Shown here in pieces: positions 5,284-47,197 of a DNA stretch of 64,000 nucleotides. Source of the stretch: Nitrospira sp. (GTDB taxonomy: Bacteria; Nitrospirota; Nitrospiria; Nitrospirales; Nitrospiraceae); assembly GCA_019636815.1 (NCBI GenBank), contig JAHBWT010000007.1, positions 1-64,000 of the forward strand, given 5' to 3'. The translations under genes and the position numbers were made by a program. The notes under the pieces were generated by a model that did not search any database, was not told the DNA's origin, and worked only from the letters and a program-made list of their open reading frames with translations. How positions within the stretch are numbered: position 1 is the stretch's first letter; every line of letters starts with the position of its first letter.

Positions 5284-5546
5284 ACAGGCGTCCTTGTGAT
5301 TTTCGCCTGGAGGATCTTTGGACCTGGGAGAAGAGTGATGGTCAACTACTCTTCCTGCGTTTCCGAGCTGCGGCCCACGTGCCCGTGTTTCCTATTCAGT
5401 TGCATCGACGGATTGGCTCACAGACGCAACTCGATATGCACGGCTTGTCCAGCATTCTTCCTGGTTCGACCACTGAAAAGGTGTGAATCCATATGTGCCA
5501 TCTGGTCTTCGATGGCACCCCACTAAAGAGTTGCCCGCCTTCGTCG

Positions 5547-6194
5547 CTACTGTTGTCCTTTCGCGCTCCAGTCGTCGAGGAACTTTTTCAAGCCTGCATC
5601 AGTCAATGGGTGTTTAAAGAGCGCCTGGAACACGCTGTAAGGCATCGTGCAGATGTGACCGCCTGCTAATGCCGCCTCGACCACGTGCTGCGGATGACGA
5701 ACGCTTGCGACCAATACCAATGTCTTGTAGTCATAGTTCTTGTAAATTGTCAGGATCTGTCGAATCAGTTCCATCCCGCTTGAGCTGATGTCGTCGAGCC
5801 GGCCGATAAAGGGCGAGACGCACCAGGCACCGGCCTTAGCCGCTAGCAGTGCCTGAGTGGGAGAGAAACAGAGAGTGACGTTCACTTTGATTCCTTCTGA
5901 AGCCAGTCGCTTCGTCGCCTTGAGGCCTTCTGGAATGAGAGGACATTTGACCACGATATTCTTGTGGATCTTGGCGAGCTCTTTCCCTTCCTTCACCATC
6001 GCGTCTGCTTCCACGCTCACGACCTCGGCGCTGATGGGGCCATCTACGATCTTGCAGACCTCTTGCAGCATTTCCCTGAAACTGCGACCTTCCTTGACGA
6101 CAAGGGAGGGGTTCGTCGTCACACCGTCGAGCAATCCGAGACTTGCGGCTTCTTGAATCTCTTTCACATTCGCTGTGTCGAGGTAAATTTTCAT
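5547..6194 (-). CDS. fsa: Fructose-6-phosphate aldolase / small transaldolase
   Basis: A 215-residue TalC/MipB-type enzyme. The N-terminus [16 protein letters not shown], the GVTTNPSLV motif near residue 25 and the Schiff-base lysine in [13 protein letters not shown] near 85 are diagnostic of small class I aldolases. Members act either as fructose-6-phosphate aldolase or as true transaldolase in the pentose phosphate pathway. Motifs alone do not separate these two activities, so the symbol is tentative. Its role would be cytosolic sugar-phosphate interconversion. It is a single-gene unit with no same-strand partner closer than the YHS-domain gene further upstream. Confidence 0.88.
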
Positions 6195-36003: not shown

Positions 36004-36879
36004 ATGTCAAATTCTTATCGCATGAAGTCATCGGGCATCTCGCACTCGCTGATCAATGAGCTCATGAGGCTCTATGACTATCCTCATCCGCATCACCCAA
36101 AGCGAACAATCCACGGCTATGATCGTCCGCATGCCCTGCGAACAGCGAGGATGTGTGTGGCTGTCGCGAGCCGCTTAGGGCATCCTCGCGATCGGATACA
36201 GCTCTATCATGTTGCCTGTCTCCTGCACGATCTGGGCCGTGCCGGGCTTGATCGGCAACTTTTTGGAACCATTTGGTCTTGGGCTAAGCAACGGGGTATT
36301 CCAACAAGGCCCCGTGAATGGCGTGCCGTTCATCCACGGACCACCTATGGACGGGAGACGGAAGCCTTTGTTTCCCTGTATCGCCGGGATCTTGAAGCAT
36401 CCGGCGTGCCCATGGATGCGTGGGCTGTCGAACAGATCGAAATGCGTCTTGGCTATGCTCGCCGTCTTGCCAGGCGTTTGCGGGCTGTGAGGCCTGCGTT
36501 GAAGACGCTTGGAGTTGAGTGGGAGCCTTGGATGCAGCAGGTGATGCTGTATTACTATTATCCGGAACGGCTGGCCAAGGCCAAGGCCTGGGTAAGACAA
36601 CTGGCTGAAATCCTCGTCGCGTGTGAGCAGTTTGAAGCGTATAGCAACCGGCGACGGGGGCAAGATTACTACGCTCGAAAAAAAGAAAGCGTACCGGAGG
36701 CCTTTGCCTATCTCGAGAAGCTGGAACAAGAGGGCATTCTCAGCAGCGAGGTCTTGAATGCCGTACGGTTGTTGTCGGCTGAAGGTGCGTTCGATACCAT
36801 TCTAGCGGAGGCACGAGGAGAGCCGCTGTCGCGAAGTGACCGCCGTTATCTTCGCAGTTTCATGGATAGAAGCGTCTAA
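36004..36879 (+). CDS. HD-domain protein
   Basis: A protein of about 291 residues with an HD-type metal phosphohydrolase core: HGYDRPHALRTARMC near residue 38 and the diagnostic HD pair in ACLLHDLGRAGLD near 70. The distal half is helical and basic (ARRLARRLRAVRPALK), and a late segment is tyrosine rich (VMLYYYYPERL). The substrate class is unknown. Its stop overlaps the yjbQ start (TAATG). Start at 36004 is inferred from the promoter position and codon pattern, although no strong ribosome-binding site is visible. Confidence 0.8.
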   Translation: MSNSYRMKSSGISHSLINELMRLYDYPHPHHPKRTIHGYDRPHALRTARMCVAVASRLGHPRDRIQLYHVACLLHDLGRAGLDRQLFGTIWSWAKQRGIPTRPREWRAVHPRTTYGRETEAFVSLYRRDLEASGVPMDAWAVEQIEMRLGYARRLARRLRAVRPALKTLGVEWEPWMQQVMLYYYYPERLAKAKAWVRQLAEILVACEQFEAYSNRRRGQDYYARKKESVPEAFAYLEKLEQEGILSSEVLNAVRLLSAEGAFDTILAEARGEPLSRSDRRYLRSFMDRSV

Positions 36880-37301
36880 TGGCCGTCCGAACCGTTCCCT
36901 TGACCATCCGCATGGGAGGTGGCACGGACATTGAGAACATTACACAATCCGTGGCCGAGGCCGTCGCGGCGTCGAACCTTCGAGACGGAATTGTGACGGT
37001 GTTCGTCAAGCATACGACCGCCTCGATCATGATGATCGAGGATGAACCTGGGATTCGCGCCGACACCAGAACGTTCTGGGATCGAGTCATTCCTCCGGAC
37101 TCTAGCTGGCAGCATAACACCGTAAATCCAGGGGAGGACAACGGTCACAGCCACCTTCGAGGACAGCTTCAGGGGCCTTCTCTCACCATTCCCTTTGCCG
37201 CCGGCACCCTTCTTCTAGGAACATGGCAACAAGTCGTCCTGGTCGATTTCGACACCCGTGCGAGAACGCGTGAACTTATCGTGCAGGTTCTGGGTGAATA
37301 A
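36879..37301 (+). CDS. yjbQ: YjbQ-family protein
   Basis: A 140-residue member of the YjbQ/UPF0047 family. Family features include VFVKHTTASIMMIEDEPGIRADTRTF (key histidine), HNTVNPGEDNGHSHLRGQLQGPS and LLLGTWQQVVLVDFDTRARTRE. Weak thiamine-phosphate synthase activity has been reported for family members, but the true role is open. It is translationally coupled upstream to the HD protein and overlaps the following HtrA-like gene by eight bases. Confidence 0.92.
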   Translation: MAVRTVPLTIRMGGGTDIENITQSVAEAVAASNLRDGIVTVFVKHTTASIMMIEDEPGIRADTRTFWDRVIPPDSSWQHNTVNPGEDNGHSHLRGQLQGPSLTIPFAAGTLLLGTWQQVVLVDFDTRARTRELIVQVLGE

Positions 37302-38418
37302 GAGTATAGGATCGGTAACTCTCCTCCTGCTTTTCAGCACAACAGTTGCGCTGTCGGCCACGACGTTGGGAGAGTGGGGTAAACCTCTTGGCGCTGTGTA
37401 CGACGGCCCGGAAGGTAAGCCACGCCCCGTTTCCCCGCCTCCCGCCGAGTTAGAGGCTGACGAACGGGCAACGGTGGCCGTCTTTGAGCGGGCGGCGAAA
37501 TCGGTCGTATTCATCGCGAACACGGCCATACAGCGGGATTTCTGGTCGCTCGACATTATGGAGGTGCCGCAAGGATCGGGGTCGGGCTTCATTTGGAACC
37601 AGCAAGGCCATATCGTCACGAACTTTCACGTCATTTACGGCGCCAACTCCATCAAGGTGACGTTGGCGGATCGTACCGAGTACCAGGCGAAAGTGGTCGG
37701 AGCCGATCCTGATCATGATCTGGCGGTACTCCAGATCCAGGTGCCGGATGGCCGATTGGAGCCGTTGGCGATCGGTTCTTCTCATGACTTGCGTGTGGGA
37801 CAAAAGGTGCTTGCGATCGGAAACCCCTTCGGGCTTGACCATACGTTGACGACGGGAGTCGTGAGTGCGTTGGGGAGAACGATCAAATCGATGTCCAATC
37901 GCACGATTGAAGGCGTGATCCAAACCGACGCCGCGATCAATCCTGGAAACTCGGGCGGTCCCTTGCTCGACAGTGCCGGACGCCTGATCGGGGTGAATAC
38001 ACAAATCGTGAGTCCAAGCGGAGCGTATGCCGGAATCGGCTTCGCCGTTCCCGTCGATACCGTGAACCGCATCGTTCCCGAACTCATCAAGCACGGAAAA
38101 CTCATTCGTCCTGGCCTGGGTGTCTCTCTCGTTCCGGATGCGATGGCGAAACGGTGGAGAATCAAGGGGTTGATCATCGGCAAGGTGACCAGGGGTGGGC
38201 CGGCTGATCGCGCAGGCCTGAAGGGCGCGCGTGAAACCATGGCTGGCCGGATCCAGCTCGGCGACATCATCGTGTCGGTCGCCGGGAAGCCGATGACCAC
38301 TGTTGACGATCTGATGGACGTGATGGAAGAACACAAAGTCGGTGATCGCGTGAGCGTGGAGATACTGCGCGGAAATCGGCGTGAAAAGGTTTCGGTAATC
38401 CTTCAGGCCGTCAATTAG
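37294..38418 (+). CDS. HtrA/DegP-like periplasmic serine protease (single PDZ)
   Basis: A 374-residue S1C protease. GTG 37294 is taken as the start, giving a signal peptide VNKSIGSVTLLLLFSTTVALSA; it overlaps the yjbQ stop. The catalytic His lies in IVTNFHVIYG, the Asp in PDHDLAVLQ and the Ser in NPGNSGGPLL (about residues 110, 142 and 215). One PDZ domain follows (GLIIGKVTRGGPADRAGLKG). It degrades or refolds damaged envelope proteins. It sits immediately before the proteasome genes, so both compartments' quality-control systems are neighbours. Confidence 0.93.
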   Translation: MNKSIGSVTLLLLFSTTVALSATTLGEWGKPLGAVYDGPEGKPRPVSPPPAELEADERATVAVFERAAKSVVFIANTAIQRDFWSLDIMEVPQGSGSGFIWNQQGHIVTNFHVIYGANSIKVTLADRTEYQAKVVGADPDHDLAVLQIQVPDGRLEPLAIGSSHDLRVGQKVLAIGNPFGLDHTLTTGVVSALGRTIKSMSNRTIEGVIQTDAAINPGNSGGPLLDSAGRLIGVNTQIVSPSGAYAGIGFAVPVDTVNRIVPELIKHGKLIRPGLGVSLVPDAMAKRWRIKGLIIGKVTRGGPADRAGLKGARETMAGRIQLGDIIVSVAGKPMTTVDDLMDVMEEHKVGDRVSVEILRGNRREKVSVILQAVN

Positions 38419-38483: not shown

Positions 38484-40220
38484 ATGAGTGATCACAGATC
38501 TTCCGATCATGGTGAGCCCGCCGGTCAGAGCGATGCCGCATCGCTAAAAACCGGGACCGATCCGCTCGAATTGATCGAACAATGCTTGGCTTCCTTCCCC
38601 GAGGATGATCCTCGACAGAAGCTGCTCTATAAGTTGCGTCATGCTGTCCTGTTATCTCAGGCCGCCTATCAGCAGCGCGAGCTGGAATTCAAAAAAGTCA
38701 GTGAGGTGGTGGCCAAGCTCACGGCGCCGGCGAACCGTATCGGCACCCTGCTCGGTCTGCCAGGCGAAGGATTCGCCCGCATCGTGGTCGGTGGGGCCGA
38801 GTATTACACCAACGTAGATCCTCGTGTGCCCGAATCCGATCTCAAGATTGGAACGCAGATTCTCGTCAACGAAGCCTATGCGGTGATTAAGACATTGGGC
38901 TACGATCGAAACGGGCCCATATTGAAACTGACTGAGGCGATGCCCGACGGGCGATTACGGTTTGAACAGGACATGGGCCGACAATCATTGATCTTGCAGC
39001 GATCGACTGATTTGATCGGAGTGGATCTCACGGCAGGTGACGAAATTCGAATCGACCCGAGCCATCATGTGGCAATCGAAAAACTAGGAGATCGTAAATC
39101 AAGCCGGCATGCTCTCGATGAAACGCCGACGGTGACCTGGCAGCAGATCGGTGGCCAGAAGGAAGCGATAGCCGCGATTCGAAAGGCGATTGAATATCCT
39201 CTGCTGCATGCTCAGACCTTTGAGCGGTTCAAGTTCGCACAACCGAAAGGCTTTCTTCTCTACGGGCCACCGGGGTGTGGGAAGACGCTCATTGGACAAG
39301 CGGCAGCGGGGAGTCTTTCCAAGTTGGTCAGCGAATCCAATCACGAGCAATCCTCGGGGGCGGACAAGCGCCTTCCGGTGACGAGCGGAACATTTCTTCA
39401 CGTCAAGGGGCCGGAAATCCTGAACATGTGGCTCGGCGAATCGGAACGGATGGTTCGCGACCTCTTTGAAGAGGCTCGCGCGAGACGCAAGAGCGGCGCG
39501 CTCCCGTTCATCTTTATCGACGAAGCCGAGTCGATTCTGGGAACCCGGCGGGCCATGCGATCCTTCAATATTTCGAACACGCTCGTTCCGATGTTTTGCA
39601 GCGAAATGGACGGGATCGAATCGCTGCGTGATGTGGTGATTATTCTGGCTTCCAACCGACCTGATTTGATCGATCCGGCGGTGCTGCGTCCAGGTCGTAT
39701 CGACCGCAAGATCAAAGTGAGTCGGCCGGACAAGGACGCGGCGGCCCAGATTCTCAAGGTGTACTTAACCGAGGACCTACCACTGGACTCGGTATTGGTC
39801 GAGGAGCGAGGTGGCGAGCACGCCTACGCGGTGGCGTCGCTCGTCGAAGATGTCGTTGAGTCCATCTTCCAACGGACGGCGGACAATCGGCTTCTCTCGA
39901 TCAGGCTGAGGAGCGGTCAAAGCAAGGTCCTCTATCGCGGCGATCTTGTGAGTGGAGCCATCTTGGCGTCGATCGTTCAACGTGCCAAAGAAAAGGCGAT
40001 CGACCGCACGATTCAGACCGGCCAGCCGGTGGGATTGCTGGCCAGGGATTTGCTGGATAGCGTCTCCGAGGAATTCAGAGAAGGCGAAATGTTGCCACCT
40101 GATGACGCGGCAGAAGAATGGCTGAAGCTATTGGATCATCACCCTGAACAGGTGGTTGGAGTCTCTTCGTTCAGGCATGGCCGCCAGACCCAGGAACGGC
40201 TCGTGAATCAAATCATTTAG
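38484..40220 (+). CDS. mpa: Proteasome-associated AAA+ unfoldase (Mpa/ARC)
   Basis: A 578-residue hexameric ATPase that unfolds tagged proteins into the 20S core. An N-terminal coiled coil (about residues 45-80) is the modifier-binding element in Mpa. Two OB folds follow to about 200. The AAA+ domain has GPPGCGKT at 261-268 (Walker A), FIFIDEAES at 342-350 (Walker B) and later SNRPDLIDPAVLRPGRIDR with arginine fingers. Odd point: the protein ends ...RLVNQII. The penultimate Tyr of the GQYL tail that docks actinobacterial Mpa on the core is missing. It begins the mpa-dop-modifier-prcB-prcA-pafA series. Confidence 0.95.
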   Translation: MSDHRSSDHGEPAGQSDAASLKTGTDPLELIEQCLASFPEDDPRQKLLYKLRHAVLLSQAAYQQRELEFKKVSEVVAKLTAPANRIGTLLGLPGEGFARIVVGGAEYYTNVDPRVPESDLKIGTQILVNEAYAVIKTLGYDRNGPILKLTEAMPDGRLRFEQDMGRQSLILQRSTDLIGVDLTAGDEIRIDPSHHVAIEKLGDRKSSRHALDETPTVTWQQIGGQKEAIAAIRKAIEYPLLHAQTFERFKFAQPKGFLLYGPPGCGKTLIGQAAAGSLSKLVSESNHEQSSGADKRLPVTSGTFLHVKGPEILNMWLGESERMVRDLFEEARARRKSGALPFIFIDEAESILGTRRAMRSFNISNTLVPMFCSEMDGIESLRDVVIILASNRPDLIDPAVLRPGRIDRKIKVSRPDKDAAAQILKVYLTEDLPLDSVLVEERGGEHAYAVASLVEDVVESIFQRTADNRLLSIRLRSGQSKVLYRGDLVSGAILASIVQRAKEKAIDRTIQTGQPVGLLARDLLDSVSEEFREGEMLPPDDAAEEWLKLLDHHPEQVVGVSSFRHGRQTQERLVNQII

Positions 40221-40307
40221 CTGTACATGGTCTACAACATCGTTAAGTCGTGAGGCATCAAAGAAAGTCCATTGACGTGATCAGTTGTGACATGGTGACC
40301 AACCAAC

Positions 40308-41834
40308 GTGCGTCTCTTCGGGATTGAAACGGAATACGGCATCACGCGCGACGATGTGGACGGGGTCGATCCGGTCGTCGAATCAATGGAATTGGTGCGC
40401 GCTTACCTGGCAGCCTCCTTTGAACGGCGTTGGGATTATGCCGGCGAGGATCCGCATGAGGATGCTCGCGGATTCCGTGTCTCGGGTTTGCAGCAGGATA
40501 GAGAGGAAGACGAGTTCGAAAAACGCGATGCCCATCGTCCCTTCTCGTTCCATGAAATGAAAAGCGACCTCGTGTTGCCCAATGGCGCGCGTTTCTACAA
40601 CGACCACACCCATCCTGAATATTCCACACCCGAGTGTCGGACGCTGAAAGACCTGGTGACTCAAGATCGCGCGGGGGAGCGCATCCTCCGGCGCGCCGCC
40701 CAGCGGCGTAATAAGGCGTTGGGGGGAGAGCATGTCCGACTCTACAAGAACAACACGGATTTCCACGGGCACAGTTACGGGTGTCACGACAACTATCTCG
40801 TGGCACGGTCCATTCCCTTTCCGAATCTCGTTGTTGGTTTGGTGCCGTTTTTGGTGAGTCGACAGGTTATCGCCGGCGCGGGGAAGGTCGGGACTGAAGC
40901 GCAGGAGTCCGGACATGTTCCAGGGTGGTATCAGCTCTCGCAACGCGCCGACTTTATGGAGGCGGAGTTGGGCGTTGATACCATGCACAACCGTCCCATT
41001 CTCAACACCAGAGATGAACCCCATGCGGATCGCGGGAAGTATCGACGGCTCCATCTCATCATCGGGGATGCCAATATGTGCGAGTATGCGACAGCGCTCA
41101 AAGTCGGGACAACACGGCTTGTTCTCGATCTGATCGAGCGCGGAGCGGCGCCGGTTTTCGAACTCGATCAACCGGTGACCGCTGTGAAACGGTTGTCGCG
41201 AGACCCAGACCTCAAGACGGTCGTCAAGCTCAAGAATGGGCAGAGACTCTCAGCCGTGGATATTCAAGAATCCTATTGCGACGTCGCGAGGCGGGTGCTT
41301 TTCGGTACCGACGAGGAAACGGATTGGTTATTAGGTGAATGGGCTGAGACTCTGCAGCTGCTGGCGCGGAACCGTTCACGGTTGGTTGGGAAGCTGGATT
41401 GGGTCACGAAACAGTGGTTGATCGAGACCTTCATGCGGGAAGAACGGATTGGTTGGAACGATCCTTGGTTGGCCAGCTTGGACTTGGAGTACCATAATGT
41501 GAATCCCGAACAGGGACTGTACTCAGGATTGGAAGCGGAAGGACAAACGTGGCGGATGACCACCGACGAGGGGATCGAAGAGGCAATGCGGAACGGCCCA
41601 ACAGATACTCGTGGCGGATTGCGGGGGCTTTGCGTTCAGCGGTTTTCTGATCAGATCACGTCGATGCAGTGGGAGCGCATCCAGTTTGTCGGTGGAACAC
41701 GCTCTCGTAATTTGGACATGGGGGATCTCTTCGATCCGCAAGCGGTGCGACGATGTGCACAGGTCTTTCAGGAGGCCACTTCACCGGCTGAGGCGTTGGC
41801 GGCGTGGAGCCACGGAAAGGATAGGGAGCTATGA
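40308..41834 (+). CDS. dop: Dop: modifier hydrolase (depupylase-type)
   Basis: A 508-residue carboxylate-amine ligase-like enzyme of the Dop/PafA family, expected to remove the modifier from substrates. GIETEYG is at residues 5-11. The catalytic Asp is D99 in FYNDHTHPEYS. The insertion between residues 45 and 85 before the catalytic strand matches the longer Dop type rather than PafA. NTRDEPHAD near 235 and GTTRLVLDLIERG near 275 are shared family blocks. A GTG is the probable start codon. Because the modifier already ends in Glu, deamidation should not be needed, leaving removal as the main job. Its stop overlaps the modifier start. Confidence 0.95.
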   Translation: MRLFGIETEYGITRDDVDGVDPVVESMELVRAYLAASFERRWDYAGEDPHEDARGFRVSGLQQDREEDEFEKRDAHRPFSFHEMKSDLVLPNGARFYNDHTHPEYSTPECRTLKDLVTQDRAGERILRRAAQRRNKALGGEHVRLYKNNTDFHGHSYGCHDNYLVARSIPFPNLVVGLVPFLVSRQVIAGAGKVGTEAQESGHVPGWYQLSQRADFMEAELGVDTMHNRPILNTRDEPHADRGKYRRLHLIIGDANMCEYATALKVGTTRLVLDLIERGAAPVFELDQPVTAVKRLSRDPDLKTVVKLKNGQRLSAVDIQESYCDVARRVLFGTDEETDWLLGEWAETLQLLARNRSRLVGKLDWVTKQWLIETFMREERIGWNDPWLASLDLEYHNVNPEQGLYSGLEAEGQTWRMTTDEGIEEAMRNGPTDTRGGLRGLCVQRFSDQITSMQWERIQFVGGTRSRNLDMGDLFDPQAVRRCAQVFQEATSPAEALAAWSHGKDREL

Positions 41835-42022
41835 AACACAGTACAATGCCGGAACGGCGTGAAGGGCCAGTTGATCCCATGCCCAAGTCTCCCCGTCCCG
41901 AAGAGGGAGGCGGGCCACGGCGCCCGGAAACTGGATCGCCGGACAAAGATAGCCTCATGAAACGGATGCGCAAAGTCGATCCCAAACAAGCTGAACGGTA
42001 TCGGCAACGAACAGGGGAGTAA
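41831..42022 (+). CDS. UBact, Pup-like protein modifier
   Basis: A 63-residue, highly charged, probably disordered protein between dop and prcB, where pup lies in actinobacteria. It is rich in Pro/Gly/Arg, with a polar segment KSPRPEEGGGPRRPETG, and ends RYRQRTGE. This matches UBact, the Pup-related modifier described in Nitrospirota and some other phyla, whose conserved C-terminal Gly-Glu (or Gly-Gln) is ligated to substrate lysines. The sequence is otherwise unlike actinobacterial Pup. The ATG overlaps the dop stop (ATGA), and prcB follows after about 90 bases. Confidence 0.9.
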   Translation: MKHSTMPERREGPVDPMPKSPRPEEGGGPRRPETGSPDKDSLMKRMRKVDPKQAERYRQRTGE

Positions 42023-42112
42023 TCAAGAAGTCGTAAGGTCCGAGTCAGTCGTTAACGTAGGCCAGCACTCGAGGCTCAGCACGTTTCACTCAGTGCTCGG
42101 TGAGGAATGGGC

Positions 42113-42880
42113 ATGCAGGGCGATTTCTATCAGCTTTTAAAGGGAAAAGGATATGTGCTGGGAGTGCCGGGACAGGCTGGAGCAGGCCAGAACCTGACAA
42201 CCGCCACCACGATCCTCGCGTTCAAGTACCGCGACGGCGTTCTAGTCGCAGGGGACCGTCGTGCGACAGCCGGCAATCTGGTGATGTACGACCGCACCGA
42301 CAAGGTGTTGGAAATCGACCGGCACAGCGTCATGGCGATCGCCGGAGTGCCGGCCACTGCCTATGAAATGGCGCGCATCCTTGAACATTCCTTCAAGTAC
42401 TACCGCCGAACACAACTTCAGGAACTCAGTTTTGAGGGCAAACTGCGAGCGCTCTCCAAGCTGCTGAAGGAAAATGTCCCTGCAGCCTTGGCCGGGACTG
42501 GGGCCGTTGCACCGATTTTTTCCGGCTACGATGCCGAGCACGACGCGGCCAAGATTTATTTTTACGATATCCTCGGTGCGGAATTCGAAGGAGTGGAATA
42601 CGCGGTGTCCGGGTCCGGTTCACCGACCATTCGCGGCATCCTTCATTATGTGAATACATGGGGAGAGCAGCCACTCAGTGCGATGTCTGAGGAGCAGGCA
42701 ACCGTTCAGGCATTGCGGCTGTTGACCAGTGCTGCGGAATTCGACAGTGCGACGGGCGGGGTGAATCGTGATGCCGGTCTTTATCCGGTCATCAAGTTTA
42801 TCACTACTGCTGGAGTTAGGACGATGCTGGATTCTCAGCTGCGGTCGCTGTTCGAATCGAAAGTTTCTCGAGGCGTGTAA
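42113..42880 (+). CDS. prcB: Proteasome beta subunit
   Basis: Catalytic subunit of the 20S core. A propeptide of about 31 residues is followed by TTILAFKYRDGVLVAGDRRATAG, where the first Thr of TTI becomes the N-terminal nucleophile after self-cleavage. The Lys and Asp of the active site are in TDKVLEI and AGDRR. The C-terminal SGSGSP segment near residue 165 is conserved. ATG 42113 is preferred because GAGG precedes it by seven bases; an ATG two codons earlier lies too close. It is followed 12 bases later by prcA. Confidence 0.96.
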   Translation: MQGDFYQLLKGKGYVLGVPGQAGAGQNLTTATTILAFKYRDGVLVAGDRRATAGNLVMYDRTDKVLEIDRHSVMAIAGVPATAYEMARILEHSFKYYRRTQLQELSFEGKLRALSKLLKENVPAALAGTGAVAPIFSGYDAEHDAAKIYFYDILGAEFEGVEYAVSGSGSPTIRGILHYVNTWGEQPLSAMSEEQATVQALRLLTSAAEFDSATGGVNRDAGLYPVIKFITTAGVRTMLDSQLRSLFESKVSRGV

Positions 42881-42892
42881 GGATCATTCCAT

Positions 42893-43702
42893 ATGTACGA
42901 AGAGCCGTATCGGTGGATCGAAGCGGTCGGGAATCGGCGACAATATCTCGATGACCAGTTTAAGCCGGGGAGCCCGGTCATCGGGGTCTCGTGCGATACC
43001 GGCGTTCTGCTCATGACCATGAGCAAGGGCACGCCCAAATTGTATGAAATCTACGACCGTCTTGCCTTGGGTGGAATGGGGCATCCGGCCGATCTTGAGA
43101 AGCTGCGCTTCACTCTGTTGGAAATGGCGCACGTCGAAGGATTCAATCGCTCGCCTTCTGACGTGACAGGGAGCCGCATCGTGAAGTATGGCATTGCGCC
43201 GATGATTAAACAGGCGTTCGAGGAGGTGTTCAAAGCCCCATTCATCGTGAAGATCTTGCTGGCCGAGTTGGGCCTAAAAGCCGGGAAAGATAGTTTCTTG
43301 ACGATCAACTTTGACGGCACCTTTGAGGAGAAGAGTCAGTATGCGGTACTGGCGGCTTCAGCAGCGATCGAACAGGAGATGATGGTGTCTCTGCGGCAAC
43401 ATCCTGTTGTCTCTTTGGAACAAGCTGTCAATGCGGCGGTGTGTTCGTGGGCTGTCGGTGATCGAGTGCAACGCCAGGCACTCGATGAATCCGGAGAGCA
43501 ACGCGAAGCTCAGGCAGGCTCGGCTCGGCTCGTGAACGATCCTGATCTCCTCTATGAGCATATCCGCCGATGCATGAATGACATGACGATCGAGTGCGCC
43601 CTCCTTGATCGCCATGTTCCAGGCGCCTCCAAATATCGCACACTCGATCCAGATGAGCTGGAACGATTGCTTCCCAACAATCTAGGTCGTCCAGCTGCCT
43701 AG
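42893..43702 (+). CDS. prcA: Proteasome alpha subunit
   Basis: A 269-residue gate-forming ring subunit. Family blocks are GVLLMTMSKGTPKLYEIYDRLALGGMGHPADLEKLR near the start and a central VTGSRIVKYGIAPMIKQAFEEVF, with DGTFEEKSQYAVLA near 145. The N-terminal MYEEPYRWIEA would gate the entry pore. It encodes no catalytic Thr. About 30 residues beyond the core fold form a polar tail. It is four bases upstream of pafA, so the whole series is tightly linked. Confidence 0.95.
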   Translation: MYEEPYRWIEAVGNRRQYLDDQFKPGSPVIGVSCDTGVLLMTMSKGTPKLYEIYDRLALGGMGHPADLEKLRFTLLEMAHVEGFNRSPSDVTGSRIVKYGIAPMIKQAFEEVFKAPFIVKILLAELGLKAGKDSFLTINFDGTFEEKSQYAVLAASAAIEQEMMVSLRQHPVVSLEQAVNAAVCSWAVGDRVQRQALDESGEQREAQAGSARLVNDPDLLYEHIRRCMNDMTIECALLDRHVPGASKYRTLDPDELERLLPNNLGRPAA

Positions 43703-43706
43703 TCTT

Positions 43707-45194
43707 ATGTTGAATCGTATTTTTGGCCTTGAAACCGAATATGGGTTATTGATTCACGAAGATCACCCGGACCACTCGCCGACCTGGTTTGCCCACAAGA
43801 TTCGCGACCATCTGTTCCATGTTCAGCGGCGGGGCGTGCTCGACCTCCACCATAGGGGGCATGATGAACCTCCTGGGAATGGAGGCTTTCTCACTAACGC
43901 CGGACGAATATATCTTGATATGGGGCATCTGGAGTATGCCTCGCCCGAATGTCATTCCCTCACCGACATCGTCGCGTCAGACCGTGCTGGGGATCGCTTG
44001 CTGCAGCAGGCGATCGAGGACCTTGGCTTTTCCGATCGCGTCTCTCTCATCAAGAACAACATCGATCACGAAACAGATGCGACGTTCGGTTCGCATGAGA
44101 ATTACCTTGTTTCTCGTCGGTTTCCATTTTCGAGGCGCGGCATGGCTCCGCTTGTGGCCTTTCTTGTGACGAGGCAGATTTTCACCGGCTCTGGGCGTGT
44201 CGGCTCTGCCGGCCCGCAAGACGCCTGGATTCAGATGGATCGGTTAATCATTCCGCGTGTGGCCATGGGTGCTGGCGCGGGTGCGAGTCTGCCGTTCCAA
44301 ATCTCCCAACGGGCAGACTATATCGTGAACGATTTCTTCGAATGGGTACAGCACAATCGGGCGATAGTGAATACGAGAGACGAACCGTTGGCCGACCCGA
44401 ATCAATACCGGCGGATTCATCTGCTGCTAGGTGATTCCAACATGACTGAATTTGCGACCGCGCTGAAGTTGGGGACGACAGGACTGGTGCTGCAACTCAT
44501 CGAGGAAGGTCATGCGCCGCACGATCTGGAAATCAGTGAACCGGTCGAGGCGCTCCAGGAGATTTCGCAGGACCAAGAGCGACAGTGGTTGGTTCAACTA
44601 CATTCACAGAAGACGATTTCCGCATTGGACATTCAGGAACAGTTTCTCGATTCGGCGGTGCAGCATTGTAAAGGGCAGGACGAAGAAACGGATTGGGTTC
44701 TTACTCAATGGGAAGCGGTGCTTCGCGACCTGCGCGGGGATTATCAGAAGCTCGTCGGGCGCGTGGATTGGGCATCCAAGCTTTGGCTATTGGAGTGCTA
44801 TAGAGATGCGGAAAATCTTGACTGGCATGCTCCTATGCTCAAGAGTTTGGATCTGGAGTATCACAACCTGAATCAAACGAAGGGACTGTACTATGGACTC
44901 TTGGAAGAGGGGCGTGTTCCGCGGTTGACGACGGATACGTTCATCCAACTTGCCATGGACCAGGCACCCAAGAATACACGGGCCCATGGCCGTAGTGAAC
45001 TGGTCAAGCATCTAATCGGTTCCTGGTCCGGCGCAGGTTTTGATCAGGCCGCGAACTCTGAACGATTGTTTCCTCCCTATGTCATCAATTGGTCGATTTT
45101 CCAAGTGCGTGACCGGGCACCGTTTCCCATGCCGGATCCATTTAAGACCTACGTTGAAGACGTTCGAACCCACCTTCAGAGTGTAACCGCATAA
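43707..45194 (+). CDS. pafA: PafA: modifier ligase
   Basis: A 495-residue ATP-dependent ligase that joins the modifier's C-terminal glutamate to lysines of target proteins. GLETEYG is at residues 7-13 and the catalytic Asp D71 lies in YLDMGHLEYASPE. NTRDEPLADPNQYRR near 228 and GTTGLVLQLIEEG near 260 are shared with Dop. The short region between GLETEYG and the catalytic Asp distinguishes it from the longer Dop. It is the last gene of the locus, convergent with the YheT-type hydrolase (90 bases). Confidence 0.95.
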   Translation: MLNRIFGLETEYGLLIHEDHPDHSPTWFAHKIRDHLFHVQRRGVLDLHHRGHDEPPGNGGFLTNAGRIYLDMGHLEYASPECHSLTDIVASDRAGDRLLQQAIEDLGFSDRVSLIKNNIDHETDATFGSHENYLVSRRFPFSRRGMAPLVAFLVTRQIFTGSGRVGSAGPQDAWIQMDRLIIPRVAMGAGAGASLPFQISQRADYIVNDFFEWVQHNRAIVNTRDEPLADPNQYRRIHLLLGDSNMTEFATALKLGTTGLVLQLIEEGHAPHDLEISEPVEALQEISQDQERQWLVQLHSQKTISALDIQEQFLDSAVQHCKGQDEETDWVLTQWEAVLRDLRGDYQKLVGRVDWASKLWLLECYRDAENLDWHAPMLKSLDLEYHNLNQTKGLYYGLLEEGRVPRLTTDTFIQLAMDQAPKNTRAHGRSELVKHLIGSWSGAGFDQAANSERLFPPYVINWSIFQVRDRAPFPMPDPFKTYVEDVRTHLQSVTA

Positions 45195-47121: not shown

Positions 47122-47197
47122 TGGCTCCCCGGGCAGGACTCGAACCTGCGACCAGCCGGTTAACAGCCGGCTGCTCTACCAACTGAGCTACCGGGGA
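47122..47197 (-). tRNA. tRNA-Asn (GTT anticodon)
   Basis: A complete cloverleaf on the minus strand. The 5' acceptor TCCCCGG pairs with CCGGGGA near the 3' end. AGCTCAGTTGGTAGAGC forms the D arm, CTGTTAA is the anticodon loop (GTT, Asn), and GGTTCGAGTCC gives the T arm. The discriminator is G and the terminal CCA is encoded. It ends about 40 bases past the aldolase pseudogene. Confidence 0.97.

Follow-up and report, generated by a model that had tools for sequence, protein, structure and literature searches.

The six genes at 38484-45194 of the window (the whole 64,000-nucleotide stretch of Nitrospira DNA analyzed here) raise the question of whether a small protein that already ends in glutamate belongs to a complete tagging-and-proteasome system, and what its enzymes, a full-length Dop among them, would then do. 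The preliminary description had identified the 63-residue protein ending RQRTGE at the pup position as UBact. The family models agree: the modifier matches PF20513 with an E value of 3.5e-20 and 72 bits (cut-off 27.8) and NCBIfam NF033388 with 75.1 bits (cut-off 35). A comparison with both UBact and Pup had also been proposed; made with family models, it places the modifier inside UBact, the only family listed at an E value of 0.001 or better, and the Pup model (PF05639) is not matched. The C-terminus reads RYRQRTGE, which gives the gene the RQRTG(E/Q) end in a dop-ubact-prcB context by which UBact is recognized. Its start at 41831 is preceded by AGGGAG and overlaps dop in ATGA, and the start region is kept in relatives. 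A search of solved structures gave no match for the modifier.

Reading frames and family models confirmed all six genes, consecutive on the plus strand and in the place and order first proposed (mpa-dop-UBact-prcB-prcA-pafA):

38484..40220, plus strand, mpa1: proteasomal AAA ATPase (UBact type) of 578 aa with the tail ...ERLVNQII; Pfam AAA, OB_N and OB_C
40308..41834, plus strand, dop1: 508 aa from a GTG start, predicted UBact deconjugase/deamidase; Dop-loop with an extra DREEDEFEK stretch
41831..42022, plus strand, UBact modifier: 63 aa with the C-terminal sequence ...KVDPKQAERYRQRTGE; PF20513, NF033388
42107..42880, plus strand, prcB1: proteasome beta subunit; PF00227, E 1.3e-25
42893..43702, plus strand, prcA1: proteasome alpha subunit with the N-terminus MYEEPYRWIEAV; PF00227, E 5.3e-5
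43707..45194, plus strand, gene 6 (pafA position): probable UBact ligase; PF03136, without Dop-loop; signature DMGHLEYASP and SQRADYIVNDFFEWVQHNR

The Pfam families in the six genes are AAA with two proteasomal-ATPase OB domains, Pup_ligase twice, UBact, and Proteasome twice. The NCBIfam models for pup_AAA, Dop, PafA and the 20S alpha and beta subunits also matched, all under their actinobacterial cut-offs.

UBact was said to be known from Nitrospirota, and its models match in 103 of the 295 Nitrospirota genomes sampled. About 80 UBact loci in relatives were read for gene order and sequence comparison, and the six-gene order is constant in them save for cuts at contig ends and one locus (L093, genome G131). 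This recurrence of the modifier and of the gene order argues that the six-gene locus did not arise by chance, and with the family models it bears out the view of the locus as a complete UBact-type modifier and proteasome locus. It is a further instance of the known UBact-proteasome system. In L093, a single 180-aa frame (5493-6032) takes the place of separate prcB and prcA genes in the UBact locus, through either an in-frame deletion or a misassembly; this UBact system may lack a proteasome of its own, and the collapse of the two genes suggests that degradation may not be essential everywhere. A second UBact-like match in another relative (L066 in G141) was rejected: it scored 24 bits, below the cut-off, its frame runs beyond RQRTGE, and its neighbourhood lacks genes of the system.

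The glutamate end had prompted the proposal that Dop acts here mainly to remove the tag. A full-length Dop with its insertion is indeed kept: dop1 has the catalytic Asp, the Dop-loop and the Dop-type residues S27, V31, D94, H95, S101, F208, E210 and G214. Its score against the Dop model TIGR03688 is 471 bits (cut-off 492), as against 368 for the PafA model, and the solved structures that match it best are those of Dop. In 80 UBact genes the terminal residue is Glu in 64 and Gln in 16, and near neighbours often differ, the window's own close clade having Glu in 13 of 13 loci. Mapped on a 78-locus tree built from the five partner proteins, the end has changed between Glu and Gln at least 13 times. 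Positions -2 to -5 show zero changes on the same tree and positions -15 to -2 six altogether, so that of the last 16 positions the terminal one, always Glu or Gln, varies most. No column in Dop, the ligase, the ATPase or the proteasome was seen to track the end, independent-pair counts reaching at most 4:0 among those listed. Actinobacterial loci, taken as a control, are similarly mixed: Pup ends in Gln (GGQ) in 43 of 78 and in Glu (GGE) in 35 of 78, with Dop present in 80 of the 80 loci checked. Since both ends occur in UBact and in actinobacterial Pup, and Dop is kept in both, a Glu end beside a retained Dop does not make this locus unusual. That Dop mainly deconjugates where Pup ends in Glu is, moreover, the published general view (PMC12288473, PMC3511204). 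The original proposal fits the Glu end, and a Dop that mainly removes the tag is plausible in the window genome, but the idea is neither special nor new, and the Glu end is labile. Switching of the end beside an unchanged Dop suggests that the enzyme has probably kept its deamidase ability.

Gene 6 had been called pafA. Its position and fold agree with the name; most of the residues that define PafA are missing. The catalytic Asp and the ATP-site GxETEYG motif are kept in gene 6 as in dop1, the Dop-loop is absent, and the active site reads DMGH(L/V)EYASP across the sampled UBact loci. NCBIfam scores against the PafA and Dop models are nearly tied (325 and 324 bits). By sequence, solved Dop structures match gene 6 better than PafA. 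A predicted model (pLDDT 80) gave Z scores of 41.0 and 39.3 against Dop and PafA structures, with Foldseek putting PafA first; the comparison of structures thus did not distinguish the two enzymes. Function can be approached by elimination. Genome G019, a single contig with UBact only, has two PF03136 genes in all, both inside the UBact locus, which leaves no further candidate for its ligase. Gene 6 is thus the probable UBact ligase, judged from position, fold and elimination in UBact-only genomes.

The origin of gene 6 is a separate matter, on which we lean slightly towards an ordinary PafA ortholog, derived from a single ancient Dop/PafA duplication and drawn towards Dop in its C-terminal half by gene conversion or by shared adaptation to UBact. 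Such an origin is compatible with function as the UBact ligase. It is consistent with the locus position, with the missing Dop-loop and with a published tree in which Dop and PafA form two clusters in Actinobacteria and Nitrospirae (PMC7947786). We compared gene 6 at the roughly 20 diagnostic positions of Table 1 in that paper, which include the insertion after the Asp, the alpha-loop and a C-terminal Asp. It is PafA-type at three of them, corresponding to Dop 84 (F), 93 (L) and 101 (A). Most of its diagnostic residues, however, are of neither the PafA nor the Dop type, whereas gene 2 is Dop-like at the same positions. The one-residue insertion that PafA carries after the Asp is absent from gene 6 throughout the sampled UBact loci, where the alpha-loop is likewise distinct; that of the window, VNDFFEWVQHN, belongs to neither type, although the model predicts a short helix there, as in PafA, at low confidence. 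Trees also speak against the ortholog. A Dop/PafA tree built without the type-2 enzymes (those of the second locus described below) gave no resolved branching, but whole-length trees that include them place Dop and gene 6 of the UBact loci together, with support values of 98 to 100, and a single PafA clade is rejected over the full length (p-AU 0.013 and 0.017). The grouping of gene 6 with Dop1 is carried by the C-terminal half (p-AU 0.0015 against Dop-with-Dop); in the N-terminal half Dop-with-Dop is not rejected and is weakly preferred, which favours the ortholog. Separate origin, gene conversion and shared adaptation to UBact all fit these results. A combined proposal, which we consider less likely than not, is that most UBact-bearing Nitrospirota have two orthogonal tag-proteasome systems and that their UBact ligase is not a PafA ortholog, having arisen separately within the UBact lineage from a Dop-like ancestor.

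A family search with PF03136 returned four genes, not two, in most UBact genomes. The extra two sit in a separate mpa2-dop2-prcB2-prcA2-pafA2 locus (L193-L205, L207). UBact and canonical Pup occur together in 96 of the 295 Nitrospirota genomes, 88 of which have exactly four PF03136 genes. Pup alone was found in 41 genomes (two such genes in 31) and UBact alone in seven (two in five); two genomes have PF03136 genes with neither modifier. In deeper lineages the canonical pup gene separates dop2 from prcB2. The Nitrospira family (f1) and f2 have it away from the enzyme locus, at a distance of about 50 kb in the complete genome G147, where by sequence reading a membrane pyrophosphatase-like gene precedes it and recJ- and relA-like genes follow downstream. 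A loss of the modifier from the second Nitrospira locus was considered and rejected, as pup was found elsewhere in the genome. The window genome itself carries UBact on contig C111 and, at 8187-8375 of C123 (L208), a Pup that ends EEFVKNYVQKGGE (final residues QKGGE), again downstream of a membrane pyrophosphatase-like gene. The second enzyme locus was not found in its 143-contig assembly, and neither was thiG, a neighbour of that locus in G147; the shared absence suggests, without proving it, that the second locus is missing because of what is probably an assembly gap. The main interpretation of the locus holds; that canonical Pup is present in the same genome, and a second full system in most relatives, could not be seen from the window. 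A search of the open literature, with the founding UBact paper outside its reach, found no statement on the coexistence of UBact and Pup in one genome, and we do not claim it as new.

Both sets of proteasome genes, and their ATPases, can be told apart. PrcA1 and PrcB1 are members of the Proteasome family, the beta subunit with an N-terminal catalytic Thr placed by alignment: its propeptide ends ...LTTA and the mature protein would begin TTILAFKY. PrcA1 scores 62 bits against TIGR03691, below the cut-off. In trees, PrcA1 and PrcA2, and likewise PrcB1 and PrcB2, form distinct clades, and the alpha-subunit N-termini differ (EPYRWIEAV-like in PrcA1, MPMPYYVSPEQMMQ-like in PrcA2). In a published cluster analysis that sets Gram-negative apart from actinobacterial proteasomes, the alpha and beta subunits of Nitrospirae, Armatimonadetes and Verrucomicrobia form their own subcluster (PMC5666114), which fits the separate clade of PrcA1 and PrcB1; the passage concerned makes no mention of two proteasomes in one genome. 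Mpa1 combines two OB domains with an AAA domain and scores 431 bits against TIGR03689, below the cut-off. Mycobacterial Mpa needs a GQYL tail for gate opening (PMC8142254). This tail is absent from Mpa1, including its Tyr; the window protein ends ...NQII and those of other UBact loci mostly in II, VI or IE, whereas Mpa2 ends in TGHYL or GHYF, which resemble GQYL closely.

Taken as a whole, the locus is best explained, at a probability of about 85%, as a UBact-and-proteasome module that tags proteins in the manner of pupylation and is one of two parallel modules. The analysis shows gene content, families, conservation, coexistence and module counts, from which each enzymatic step, the pairing of either modifier with its own enzymes, and degradation as the outcome are inferred. 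Gene 6 would use ATP to activate the side chain of the terminal Glu of UBact and then attach the modifier to target-protein lysines. The tag, which is disordered, would be drawn into the Mpa ring and the target fed to the PrcA/PrcB proteasome. Dop would remove and recycle the tag, first deamidating it where UBact ends in Gln. In parallel, the mpa2-dop2-prcB2-prcA2-pafA2 set would serve Pup in most relatives. Family models, gene order, motifs, the invariant C-terminus with its E/Q end, the module counts, genome G019, the Pup gene on C123 and the differences in ATPase tails, alpha-subunit N-termini and proteasome clades support this explanation; the absence of a second set from the window assembly, the departures in gene 6, locus L093 and an Mpa1 without GQYL count against it.

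UBact and Pup might instead be used interchangeably by four enzymes and two proteasomes, the window locus being a redundant copy. The shared enzyme family and the shared end chemistry (terminal Gly-Glu or Gly-Gln) would allow it, but we consider it improbable: nearly all genomes have two enzymes per modifier, each of the four enzyme groups is a clade of its own, the alpha and beta subunits likewise fall into distinct clades, and the modules have different ATPase tails and different N-termini on the alpha subunit. The Glu/Gln ends are also discordant inside single genomes, UBact having Gln and Pup Glu in 7 of the 20 compared and the reverse holding in 1. Tagging without degradation, as in Corynebacterium, with the proteasome genes as bystanders, would accommodate both the Mpa1 tail and the collapsed prcBA of one relative, but is very unlikely given that the catalytic Thr region is conserved and that prcB and prcA are kept between modifier and ligase in every other locus long enough to judge.

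The two parallel modules of the preferred explanation can be set against known systems. Work by Lehmann et al. 2017 (doi 10.1016/j.bbrc.2017.01.037) reportedly deals, by its title, with UBact conjugation and proteasome loci in Nitrospirae and other Gram-negative phyla; modifier family, enzyme set and phylum are shared with the window locus, and there is no essential difference. The actinobacterial Pup-proteasome system shares gene order, enzyme families, the Glu/Gln end chemistry and a Dop beside a Glu-ending modifier. The window differs from it in a modifier unmatched by the Pup model, a gene 6 without the PafA signature and an Mpa tail without GQYL. The Pup-type locus of Nitrospirota follows the same overall design and coexists with UBact in most UBact genomes. 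It differs in its tag end (GGE or GGQ), its ATPase tail (TGHYL or GHYF), its PrcA N-terminus and its PafA2, which groups with actinobacterial PafA in the tree. The window locus has its value in its surroundings, a genome with two systems; the UBact ligase, whose descent is debatable, adds to it. A cell with two Pup-like tags, two ligases and two proteasomes would show directly whether such systems can be kept apart in a single cytoplasm. Trypsin would leave TGE on lysine from UBact (+287.11 Da) and GGE from Pup (+243.09 Da; both calculated from residue masses), and with such distinct remnants both tags are searchable in existing Nitrospira proteomes. Repeated Glu/Gln switching beside an unchanged Dop likewise provides natural pairs for comparing the role of deamidation.

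Scans of the DNA for promoters and terminators stayed at chance level (4 against 3.9 expected and 8 against 6.8 expected). A gene for a Do/HtrA-type serine protease with a PDZ domain (37258-38418) lies on the same strand, directly upstream of mpa at a distance of 65 bases, and upstream of it is a gene of the YjbQ/UPF0047 family (36879-37301). A tRNA-Asn gene on the minus strand (47122-47197) is the sole structured RNA found in the window.
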